DNA from: Lachnospiraceae bacterium | GTDB lineage: Bacteria; Bacillota; Clostridia; Lachnospirales; Lachnospiraceae | Reading direction: 5' to 3' | DNA length: 5,421 nucleotides | Assembly (NCBI GenBank): GCA_017959525.1 | Contig: JAGDAL010000324.1 | Coordinates: forward strand, 1-5,421 | Shown here: positions 1 through 3,448 of the stretch, piece by piece | How positions within the stretch are numbered: position 1 is the stretch's first letter | Layout: each line of letters begins with the position of its first letter | Translations under genes and position numbers: made by a program | Notes under the pieces: model-generated | Databases searched by the model: none | Told to the model about the DNA's origin: nothing | Seen by the model: the letters and a program-made list of their open reading frames with translations, nothing else

Positions 1-299
1 GCATGCAGAAGACTTTCGATACCATGGGCAGCTTCCAGGGGAATCCGGGAGCGCCGGAGAGTGATAACATCGATTTTTCCGGCATGCCGAATATCAGCAT
101 GATTAACTTAAGCGACTTAGGCGGCTTCATGAACGGCGGATTCGGAACACCGATGAGCCAGCGCCTGAAGAAGAAGCAGGCAGACAAGAATGCCAAGCCG
201 AAGGAAGCACCGGTCATCGATATTAAGAACATCCCGCCACCACACAAGATTAAGGCACTGTTGGATGATTACGTGGTAGGCCAGGATCAGGCTAAGTAG
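1..299 (+). CDS. clpX: ClpX, N-terminal part (5' truncated by window edge, ends at premature amber stop)
   Basis: This is the front part of the ATP-dependent unfoldase ClpX, the partner of the ClpP protease in the cytoplasm. The frame is open from the left edge. The Met codon at 3 is probably not the start: in related clostridial ClpX proteins the N-terminal zinc-binding domain ends in Cys-Met-x-Lys-Thr, so the first two bases (gc) are probably the end of a TGC codon for the last zinc ligand. Visible here are a roughly 70-residue Gly/Met/Asn-rich linker (GSFQGNPG, then PNISMINLSDLGGF), a basic patch (RLKKKQ), the IDIKNIPPPHKIK approach and the first AAA+ helix LDDYVVGQDQAK. The frame then hits TAG at 297-299, where homologues continue KKVMSVAVYNHYKR. 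It joins the next entry in the same frame. Recognition as ClpX is firm. Whether the gene is broken in the cell or the base is an error cannot be told here. Confidence 0.85.
   Translation, partial: MQKTFDTMGSFQGNPGAPESDNIDFSGMPNISMINLSDLGGFMNGGFGTPMSQRLKKKQADKNAKPKEAPVIDIKNIPPPHKIKALLDDYVVGQDQAK
297..299 (+). other. In-frame amber codon inside clpX
   Basis: The sequence reads GCT AAG TAG GTG ATG TCC. Changing only the first base of TAG to A gives AAG and restores Ala-Lys-Lys-Val-Met-Ser, the usual ClpX sequence at this point. No frameshift is involved, and the frame stays open for another 344 codons. It may be a nonsense mutation, a mixed population, or a sequencing or assembly error. Confidence 0.9.
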
Positions 300-1334
300 G
301 TGATGTCCGTTGCGGTATATAACCACTACAAGCGTGTGGCATCCTTAGAGAACTTAGTGGCAGAGGATGACGGCATCGAAATCGAGAAGTCCAACATGTT
401 AATGATTGGACCGACCGGTTCCGGTAAGACCTATATGGTTAAGACCTTGGCCAAGCTTTTGGATGTACCGCTTGCCATTACCGATGCCACTTCTCTCACA
501 GAGGCCGGTTATATCGGTGATGATATCGAGAGCGTAGTATCCAAGTTACTTGCGGCAGCAGGCAACGATGTGGAGCGTGCCGAGAAGGGCATCATCTTCA
601 TCGATGAGATTGATAAGCTTGCCAAGAAAAAGAACACCAACCAGCGTGATGTCAGCGGCGAGAGCGTACAGCAGGGTATGTTGAAGCTCTTAGAAGGAGC
701 AGAGATCGAAGTGCCGGTAGGAGCCAGCAGCAAGAACGCTATGGTGCCGATGACTATGATTGATACCCGCAATATTCTCTTTATCTGCGGCGGTGCCTTC
801 CCGGATTTGGAAGACATCATTAAGGAACGTCTGAACAAGGCGTCTTCCATGGGATTCGTAGCAGACTTGAAGGATAAGTACGACCACGAAGAGAACTTGC
901 TTAGCAAGGTGACGGTAGAGGACTTACGGAAGTTCGGAATGATTCCGGAGTTCATCGGACGTCTTCCGGTGATCTACTCTTTGGAGGCATTATCCGAGGA
1001 GATGTTTGTTCGCATCTTAACCGAACCGCGCAACGCCATTACCAAGCAGTATCAGAAGTTGTTGGCTTTTGATGAGGTGAATTTAGAGTTTACCGACGGC
1101 GCATTGCATGCCATTGCCCGTAAGGCCAGAGAGAAGGAGCTGGGAGCCAGAGCGCTTCGTTCCATCCTGGAAGAATATATGTTGGATATTATGTACGAGA
1201 TTCCGAAGGACGACAACATCGGAACCGTACGCATTACCGAAGACTACATCGAGAAAAAAGGCGGCCCTCAGATTATCATGCGCGATACCCAGCGCCTGGT
1301 AGAACAGAAGGCGGCAGGAACCGGGGCACAATAA
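300..1334 (+). CDS. clpX: ClpX AAA+ unfoldase, C-terminal 344 codons (downstream of amber stop)
   Basis: This is the AAA+ module of ClpX, which unfolds tagged proteins and feeds them to ClpP. Residues counted from GTG 300 show Walker A GPTGSGKT at 37-44, pore loop GYIG at 70-73, Walker B IIFIDEID at 98-105, the ClpP-docking tripeptide MGF at 184-186 (usually IGF), the GRLP arginine-finger region near 221, and sensor 2 GAR at 282-284. The end at KKGGPQIIMRDTQ plus a short Gln/Ala/Gly tail is normal for the family. It is in the same frame as the preceding fragment, so originally one gene. GTG 300 and ATG 303 directly follow the stop and could allow reinitiation, with only a weak AGG at 289-291 as ribosome binding site. 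A protein started there would lack the LDDYVVGQ segment, which in ClpX contributes to nucleotide binding, so full activity is doubtful. The next gene starts 2 bases after the TAA. Confidence 0.9.
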   Translation: MMSVAVYNHYKRVASLENLVAEDDGIEIEKSNMLMIGPTGSGKTYMVKTLAKLLDVPLAITDATSLTEAGYIGDDIESVVSKLLAAAGNDVERAEKGIIFIDEIDKLAKKKNTNQRDVSGESVQQGMLKLLEGAEIEVPVGASSKNAMVPMTMIDTRNILFICGGAFPDLEDIIKERLNKASSMGFVADLKDKYDHEENLLSKVTVEDLRKFGMIPEFIGRLPVIYSLEALSEEMFVRILTEPRNAITKQYQKLLAFDEVNLEFTDGALHAIARKAREKELGARALRSILEEYMLDIMYEIPKDDNIGTVRITEDYIEKKGGPQIIMRDTQRLVEQKAAGTGAQ

Positions 1335-1336
1335 AT

Positions 1337-1804
1337 ATGCAGTCATTTCGAATTACGGATGTCAAAGGTTTTATGGCACAGTTGTTGACCAGAGATGCCT
1401 TTGATTCCTTCCTTCTGGTGGAGGCCACCATACACAATCGGGTTGCTTACGTCATTGACGGGCATGTGGCAGGGGAAGAGACCCCATGCGTTCCTTACGG
1501 GGACGTACGACCGCTGTGCTTCGATATGATCAAAGGCAGCAAGACGCCGGAATTTTTCCAGTTTGTGTTACAGCTTGCACCGGAAGCAAAAGACAAGTTC
1601 ATAGAAGATAGTGATGTTGTTCTACAGAGTGCCGATGTATTAAGTCTCTCCATGAATATACGATATCAGAACGATGAGCTGACAATCGTAACAGGAACTT
1701 CCCTTCGGATTTTTACTGTGGATCGTTCCTTAGAGCAGCAGTGGGATCAGTGGGTTCGACGGTTTTTAACCCAGGGAAACTACACATTTGAGGAAAATGT
1801 GTAA
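1337..1804 (+). CDS. DUF5721-like protein of unknown function
   Basis: The product has 155 residues, is soluble, and has no signal peptide or membrane segment. I recognise it from memory as resembling DUF5721, a small family seen mainly in Lachnospiraceae; no function is known to me. Conserved-looking parts are the opening FRITDVKGFMAQLL and DAFDSFLLVEA, the middle RPLCFDMIKGSKTPEFFQFVLQL, and the end IRYQNDELTIVTGTSLRIFTVDRSLEQQWDQW. The ATG is 2 bases after the clpX stop, so the gene is probably co-transcribed with clpX. Only a weak GGGG (1323-1326) precedes the start, which would fit translational coupling. A clpX amber stop could therefore also lower its expression through polarity. The fold looks alpha/beta with alternating strands, but that is a guess from composition. 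Function inferred from position alone (proteolysis-linked) would be speculation. Confidence 0.8.
   Translation: MQSFRITDVKGFMAQLLTRDAFDSFLLVEATIHNRVAYVIDGHVAGEETPCVPYGDVRPLCFDMIKGSKTPEFFQFVLQLAPEAKDKFIEDSDVVLQSADVLSLSMNIRYQNDELTIVTGTSLRIFTVDRSLEQQWDQWVRRFLTQGNYTFEENV
1781..1803 (+). repeat. Perfect 9-bp inverted repeat across the stop codon of the DUF5721-like gene
   Basis: The arms TACACATTT (1781-1789) and AAATGTGTA (1795-1803) pair perfectly around the 5-base loop GAGGA. The right arm includes the first two bases of the stop codon TAA at 1802-1804. No T-tract follows, so it is not a classical intrinsic terminator. It may be an mRNA 3'-end stabilising stem-loop or a protein-binding site. 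Confidence 0.65.
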
Positions 1805-2284: not shown

Positions 2285-3448
2285 ATGAAGAAAAAATGGT
2301 TATCAATACTTACAATTGCATCCGTGACCTTAAGCCTGTGGGGGTGTGGGCTGTCTGATGTGGCAGAAGCACCGGGGCATATTGCCCAGGAGATCAATGC
2401 GTTCATTGATGCCCAGGTAGCCAAGAGTCAAATCGGTGAACCGCAAGCGGTGGAGTCGATTTCCGGGGACAAGTATGTCTATGGAACTCTAGACGATGAC
2501 GAACAGTTAACCTATGATGAACTGTTGCATGCCATCCTTACCATGGATACCGATGTGCCGCTTTCTACCAAGTCCGTGGAGCAGGTGGACAAGGTCTATA
2601 ACTGTATCCTGGCAGACTACGGAGAATTGTTCTGGATTTCCGGTTATTCTTATCAAACCTATCAACGTCAGGACCGGGTCATTGGAATCTCTTTTACCCC
2701 GACCTACACGATGACCCGGGAGACCAGGGAGCAATACCAGAAGGATATCGACGCGGTGGTGGCAGAGTGGATGCAGGAGGTGCCTGCAGGAGCCAGCGAC
2801 TATGAGAAGGCTAAGTTTGTCTATGAGACCATTATTTCCCGTGTGGATTATGATATTGAAAGCCCAAACAATCAGAACATCATTAGTGTGTTCTTAAATC
2901 ATGCTACCGTATGCCAAGGCTATGCGGATGCGGCAGCCTATCTGTTGTCTTTGATGGATATTCAGTCCTCCATCGTTACCGGCCGGGCCAACAACGAGAG
3001 CCATGCCTGGAACTTGGTGCGATTGGACGGGGATTACTACTATATGGACATTACCTGGGGAAACAGCCGCTACCTTAACGCGGATGCCACCGAAGGGAAT
3101 ATGACTAACTATGCGTACTTGAATATTACCGGTGAGGAAATTGCCCAGACCCACCGCAGTGAAGTGGTGTATGAGCTGCCGGATTGTACGGCGATTACCG
3201 ACAACTACTACAATCGGGAAGGATTGTATTTCGCAGTTTGGGATCCGGATGAAATCGGAGCCGCTTTTGCTGATGCTTACTACGGTGGAGCCGATATGGT
3301 GTCGGTCAAATTCGCCGGCAACGACCTCTACAATCAGGCGGTGGATTACTACCTGACACAGGGCAGATTCATTGATTATTGTAGGGAATTACGGTCACTT
3401 GCGTACATCGAAAGTCCGGAGATGAGCGTGTTGACCTTTATGTTTTAG
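2285..3448 (+). CDS. Predicted lipoprotein with transglutaminase-like (Cys-His-Asp) domain
   Basis: The product has 387 residues from ATG 2285. The N-terminus MKKKWLSILTIASVTLSLWG followed by Cys21 is a lipoprotein signal: a charged start, a hydrophobic stretch and the lipobox Leu-Trp-Gly-Cys, so the protein should be anchored on the outer face of the membrane. ATG 2285 was preferred to the in-frame GTG 2267, which lies inside the terminator stem. Residues about 175-262 form a transglutaminase/papain-like core: EKAKFVYETI, then ATVCQGYADAA with Cys210, NNESHAWN with His240, and YYYMDITWG with Asp255, the expected triad in the right order. Bacterial members are mostly uncharacterised and may be proteases or crosslinking enzymes; the substrate cannot be inferred. 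Residues 22-170 and about 290-387 match nothing I recognise; the tail is rich in Tyr, Asp and Ala. No clear promoter was found in 2140-2246. The stop TAG is 51 bases from degV. Confidence 0.85.
   Translation: MKKKWLSILTIASVTLSLWGCGLSDVAEAPGHIAQEINAFIDAQVAKSQIGEPQAVESISGDKYVYGTLDDDEQLTYDELLHAILTMDTDVPLSTKSVEQVDKVYNCILADYGELFWISGYSYQTYQRQDRVIGISFTPTYTMTRETREQYQKDIDAVVAEWMQEVPAGASDYEKAKFVYETIISRVDYDIESPNNQNIISVFLNHATVCQGYADAAAYLLSLMDIQSSIVTGRANNESHAWNLVRLDGDYYYMDITWGNSRYLNADATEGNMTNYAYLNITGEEIAQTHRSEVVYELPDCTAITDNYYNREGLYFAVWDPDEIGAAFADAYYGGADMVSVKFAGNDLYNQAVDYYLTQGRFIDYCRELRSLAYIESPEMSVLTFMF

Follow-up and report, generated by a model that had tools for sequence, protein, structure and literature searches.

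In E. coli ClpX, ssrA binding and specificity involve residues Tyr153, Val154, Thr199, Val202, Arg228, and His230; human ClpX, in which positions 199 and 230 are both Leu, leaves ssrA substrates undegraded (PMC7652416, accessible part). Extra copies of ClpX are described in Myxococcus xanthus, where ClpX2 and ClpX3 are encoded in isolation, away from clpP, and both can be deleted; ClpX3 lacks the Arg-Lys-His (RKH) motif, and ClpX2 has Lys in place of Arg (PMC11423568, accessible part). An open-access literature search found no description of a second ClpX in the Lachnospiraceae. Sources that name the protein call it simply ClpX, the same as the first copy.

The window analysed here is the whole of contig C315 (5,421 bases) of a Lachnospiraceae metagenome-assembled genome (MAG) of 370 contigs, with a completeness of 70.84% and a contamination of 3.14%; the median length of 80 sampled contigs is 3,177 bases. 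It carries a clpX-like gene, hereafter clpX2, with an in-frame TAG 297 bases from the contig end (Table 1). Compared to canonical ClpX (TIGR00382/NF003745; E. coli ClpX), clpX2 shares the Walker A and B motifs, the GY[V/I]G pore loop, and the IGF-type loop, and almost every ortholog also has the zinc finger; however, clpX2 belongs to a separate clade, is longer, lacks RKH, and lies apart from clpP in G002, the closest relative. In human mitochondrial ClpX, as in clpX2, the RKH loop differs at its His230 position, but the human protein has Leu at the Thr199 and His230 positions, whereas clpX2 has Asn at 230 and mostly Gln or Ser at 199 (human residues from the accessible part of PMC7652416). 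M. xanthus ClpX3 is described without the N-terminal Cys domain, which the Lachnospiraceae copy usually keeps; the M. xanthus copies represent one species, and they are likened to the Lachnospiraceae gene by description and not by sequence kinship (PMC11423568, accessible part). By this analogy, the Lachnospiraceae gene would work like the extra ClpX of M. xanthus.

Table 1. Coordinates of the features in the window.
Feature	Position	Strand	Basis	Remark
Upstream fragment of clpX2	3..296	+		Covers the linker and the first part of the AAA+ core; the zinc finger and the true start are off the contig
VVGQD motif	273..287	+	Motif alignment	Upstream of the stop, so absent from any restart product
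In-frame amber codon TAG	297..299	+	Sequence and ortholog codon comparison	Private to this MAG
Downstream fragment of clpX2	300..1334	+		344 codons, GTG 300 to TAA 1332-1334
Walker A, GPTGSGKT	408..431	+	Motif alignment
Pore-1 loop, GYIG	507..518	+	Motif alignment
Walker B, IFIDEID	594..614	+	Motif alignment
Ser-Lys-Asn	729..737	+	Ortholog alignment	At the place of the canonical Arg-Lys-His (RKH) loop
Met-Gly-Phe	849..857	+	Ortholog alignment	IGF-type loop
DUF5721 gene	1337..1804			Begins 2 bases past the clpX2 stop codon
Transglutaminase-core protein gene	2285..3448			Flanked by a cold-shock gene and a DegV gene

A second ClpX of the Lachnospiraceae

When family relatives were searched with the downstream piece of the gene, two groups of ClpX were recovered, one at 71–97% identity and the other, which holds the full-length canonical copies, at 48–56% identity over the AAA+ core. 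The open frames of the first group are mostly 463–587 aa and those of the second mostly 411–460 aa; the exceptions are fragments (a first-group copy in two pieces in G014, and second-group copies in G004 and G009) and a 1,243-aa frame in G034. A copy of the first group, the second ClpX, was found in 34 of 36 relatives from the genus and family, the two in which it was not found (G004 and G023) being 74% and 67% complete; no copy was found in 24 genomes from the order's other families. In a sample spread evenly over the class, all nine family members besides the MAG have it, each with two ClpX matches, and it was found in 0 of 233 genomes of other families, two of which had no match at all (four genomes, G025, G046, G050, and G052, are common to both samples). 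In the class sample, the E-value is 3.3e-173 for the weakest family match and 9.5e-119 for the best match outside.

A tree of 38 sequences picked by hand separated 22 second copies from 16 canonical copies by a branch with 100/100 support, and the window sequence adjoins the second copy of G002. In G002, the canonical copy lies in a tig-clpP-clpX-ysxC cluster (families confirmed) at C10:190174, and the second copy lies at 105215, 85 kb off; a canonical copy is present in all three congeners of the MAG. The median lengths are 505 residues for the second ClpX and 431 for the canonical one (best 120 hits each). Based on these sequence comparisons, the window gene is a second ClpX, not the housekeeping clpX of the tig-clpP-clpX cluster. 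The earlier note had taken it for the clpX of the organism; its grouping with second copies, its missing RKH, and the distance of its G002 counterpart from clpP place it elsewhere. We regard this conserved second ClpX of the Lachnospiraceae as a more useful observation than the stop within it, though a modest lead. Two more ClpX-like matches, at 37% identity, lie within 7 kb of clpX2 in one family relative (G007:C9:36640-44373).

Walker A (GPTG[S/C]GKT), the GYIG pore loop, and the IGF-type loop ([IMV]G[FY]; MGF in the window) were each found in 109 of 109 ortholog rows, and a CxxC...CxxC zinc finger in 102 of the 106 orthologs with a closed 5' end. The stretch of the window gene that would hold the zinc finger is off the contig. 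At the RKH position, the 109 rows read SKN (104), NKN (4), or SKS (1), and among the best 120 clustered proteins of each kind, RKH occurs in 0 of 120 second-ClpX hits versus 120 of 120 canonical hits. As for other positions that matter in E. coli ClpX, Val154 is replaced by Ile, and Val202 is kept. We had also considered a lost pore-2 Thr as another hallmark of clpX2, but a recount weakened this: at the variable Thr199 position, 49 of 109 rows have Gln, 45 Ser, 7 Thr, and 8 some other residue, though Gln prevails in the best 120 database hits.

The kept motifs predict that the clpX2 product docks ClpP. The intact protein in relatives would act as an unfoldase powered by ATP, with the IGF-type loop presumably serving as the site that docks ClpP, and because the RKH loop is missing, this protein is predicted to select clients other than ssrA-tagged ones; given that the Thr199 position varies, the case for such clients rests mainly on the RKH loop. 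In its boldest form, the proposal would be that a single ClpP in the Lachnospiraceae serves two ClpX unfoldases, the second being a family invention that lacks RKH, is blind to ssrA, and has its own clients, and that the lineage of the window is losing the second by one amber codon; as a whole, we consider this doubtful. If the second ClpX is truly an ssrA-blind partner of ClpP, its clients and role become directly testable.

What the MAG itself holds of the canonical system was also searched. There is no second full ClpX match and no ClpP among its contigs (71% complete). The DNA of the G002 tig-clpP-clpX-ysxC cluster matches the MAG well at tig only (97%), up to base 8169 of contig C137, which is 8,169 bases long and thus ends inside tig; the remaining matches are weak and hit clpX2 itself. 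Given that C137 ends within tig, the rest of the clpP-clpX cluster falls in an assembly gap, and nothing suggests a cell without canonical ClpXP. The earlier note had proposed searching the genome for another clpX, which gave no second full match in the MAG; canonical copies are present in the congeners. It had also expected that loss of ClpX would affect proteolysis broadly. This expectation does not carry over, because the stop lies in the second copy and the canonical clpX, which adjoins clpP in the closest relative, falls in the gap; loss of the second ClpX would probably not remove ClpXP.

The amber codon and the constraint around it

The frame is open on both sides of the TAG, which replaces the second Lys of A-K-K-V-M-S, just as the earlier note had read it. 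Its counterpart in the 424-residue ClpX chain 8e91_A is Lys86. To compare orthologs, we located the homologous codon by tblastn with both pieces of the gene (X at the stop) against 111 loci, of which 110 could be placed; L002, a weak match of 33% identity elsewhere in the MAG, was left out. The codon is AAG at 60 loci, AAA at 48, CAA at one (L100), and TAG at one, the window's own contig. Hence, the site is Lys in 108 and Gln in one of 109 ortholog loci (107 distinct, as L060 repeats L015 and L106 repeats L027), and the window alone has a stop. The second ClpX frames of the other three genomes of the genus are unbroken (508–532 aa), and the stops that we checked in relatives' second clpX genes (L011 in G029 and L027 in G020) are both at C-terminal ends.

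Within residues 36–431 of the visible protein, 152 columns are near-invariant, meaning that the remaining rows agree in at least 99% of cases, and the stop is the only deviation of the window from them. The description of the gene as otherwise intact thus holds for the visible part; the N-terminus lies beyond view. The ATG at position 3 is internal and not the true start, and the match of the window begins at residue 66 of P0001, the closest full relative (508 aa), whose CYVC...CNDC zinc finger ends at residue 65, just ahead of it. By this alignment, the N-terminal ~65 residues of the window's ClpX are off the contig. The downstream piece (300-1331), scored alone, reaches 486.4 bits for NF003745 (cut-off 359) and 431.3 bits for TIGR00382 (cut-off 370.75).

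We then compared the window and G002 codon by codon. Before the stop, dN is 0.043 and dS 0.846 (98 codons); after it, dN is 0.025 and dS 0.723 (344 codons). Purifying selection is strong on both sides of the stop. Given that the downstream constraint is not measurably relaxed, the stop must be very recent if it is real at all. The window branch does carry more resolved amino acid changes than the G002 branch (5 versus 0, with 12 unresolved) and a longer end branch in the tree (0.053 versus 0.0012), which relaxed selection could also give. However, the resolved synonymous changes are uneven as well (32 versus 14), and with these taken into account, accelerated evolution on the window branch falls within chance (about 0.16).

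Possible origins of the stop

The earlier note had offered a wrong base, a recent loss, or a bypass of the stop, and for a lone stop in a strongly constrained frame this was the right set. We consider the TAG to be probably a consensus error, arising in assembly or sequencing of a fragmentary MAG, and not a working feature. Single-base consensus errors and disrupted open reading frames occur in MAGs of low depth, and the window looks likewise: a lone in-frame stop, close to a contig end, interrupts a conserved gene whose frame is open in all relatives examined. A literature search on pseudogene errors in MAGs found nothing. A wrong base in a thin, fragmentary metagenome assembly would yield just such a lone TAG in clpX2, and substitution errors at about 1 per 1,000 bases would suffice for the stops seen in the MAG, both the rate and the thin coverage being what we infer.

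The stops were counted by comparing 1.09 Mb of G002 with 338 kb of the MAG (81 contigs, the window included by design). Among 901 mechanically called G002 ORFs, 73 were matched at an identity of at least 65%, and over their 25,238 codons the MAG has three interior stops, or two in 72 genes when the gene that prompted the search is set aside. No split match, the mark of a frameshift, was found among the 73. In the opposite direction, 72 MAG ORFs compared with G002 gave five stops, none of them mid-way in a long gene. Two ORFs have one each, at codon 3 and at codon 7; a third (75% identity) has two, at codons 12 and 16; and an ORF of 101 codons that starts at a contig end has the last, at codon 85. 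All but this last one may lie ahead of the true starts. A smaller, earlier comparison had given two MAG stops in 51 matched ORFs and two in the opposite direction. About 4.3% of random substitutions make a stop (3.1–3.7% if transitions weigh more), so that three stops imply about 9e-4 substitutions per base, or slightly above this, an error rate that we infer to be plausible for thin coverage. At a rate near 1e-3, the cleanliness of the 152 columns is expected anyway and does not discriminate, and three broken genes in 73 (or two in 72) is a rate that real pseudogenes can also reach.

The two other interior stops of the MAG are lone in-frame TAGs as well. One (L189:5000-5002, contig C1 of G000) lies in a gene whose G002 protein has 749 aa, appears hydrophobic by eye, and carries Tyr at the site; the frame is open in all three congeners. 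The other (L256:6601-6603, contig C208 of G000) lies in a short ORF; its G002 counterpart runs open over 104 codons and has Leu at the site, and this stop differs from the G002 codon at all three bases and is thus no one-step change from it.

If the base is right, the window would hold a very recent nonsense allele whose upstream piece is useless: the strain would have just lost its second ClpX, and the canonical ClpXP of tig-clpP-clpX would carry on. We regard such a loss as possible, though not likely. Apart from the stop, what can be seen of the gene bears no lesion, the canonical copy found in all three congeners would cover for the second, and the failure to find the second ClpX in two of 36 relatives, both incomplete assemblies, leaves room for it to be dispensable; isolated clpX copies are deletable in M. 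xanthus (PMC11423568, accessible part). Against this stand the near-universal presence of the gene in the family (34/36 and 9/9) and the strong purifying selection on it. Furthermore, natural pseudogenes usually include frameshifts, and decay would have brought some, yet no split match accompanies the three lone stops of the MAG.

Bypass of the stop, by a suppressor tRNA, pyrrolysine, or leaky termination, would give a full-length ClpX2, and it could draw support from the three interior stops found in the MAG sample, every one of which is TAG. The relative's residues at the three sites differ, however (Lys, Tyr, and Leu), and most random substitutions that create a stop are expected to create TAG. 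With the codon use of this genome, its share should be 51–56%, so three TAGs of three are unremarkable (chance about 0.13–0.18), and the apparent TAG excess, which we had considered as a sign of suppression, is not significant. RF1 is present (531.2 bits, cut-off 423.25), the best PylS-like match reaches only 27.4 bits (cut-off 178.15) in the 71% complete MAG, and the search for a CTA anticodon proposed in the earlier note found none among 13 tRNAs recovered from the MAG, an incomplete set, or among 28 in the G002 stretches examined. TAG terminates 20 of the 57 matched MAG genes with a readable terminal stop, and it ends 62 of 210 closed mechanical ORFs in the MAG sample. On the strength of RF1, the PylS score, and the terminal use of TAG, we rejected codon reassignment, and the bypass that the earlier note had allowed for gains no support from these data; we judge read-through or recoding to be very improbable.

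Translation could also resume behind the stop, with the ORF from GTG 300 or ATG 303 yielding a working short ClpX. Both codons lie directly 3' of the stop, a stretch reading AAGTAGG lies just ahead of ATG 303, and the downstream piece needs no upstream part to pass the ClpX equivalog cut-offs. But AAGTAGG is only two bases from ATG 303, nearer than a usual ribosome-binding site, and a restart here would be peculiar to the window, as no relative examined has a stop at this place (0 of 109). Nor is the Met conserved (Met in 50 versus Ile in 52 of 109 rows), which rules out a conserved restart codon. The finding that would have refuted the earlier note, close relatives that share the TAG and keep a downstream start, was thus not made among the relatives examined. 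Neither the zinc finger nor the VGQ box, part of the VVGQD motif that we take to be the nucleotide-binding box of ClpX, would be present in the restart product, which is predicted to be inactive. We find such a split gene hardly credible, and even together with read-through it remains improbable. The stop itself carries little weight: single disrupted housekeeping genes in fragmentary MAGs, when seen without reads, are no basis for biology.

Neighbouring genes

DUF5721 directly follows clpX2 in G002 and at locus L032, as it does in the window. We considered it as a conserved partner or functional clue and rejected it, since it was found within 250 bases in only one of the 76 named loci with room for it (by tblastn, which misses divergent copies). 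On the upstream side, we viewed 12 loci and scanned six upstream genes that were alike by eye (L050, L053, L060, L095, L102, and L104); all six encode an HtrA-like protease (Trypsin_2 and PDZ domains), a possible link to protein quality control.
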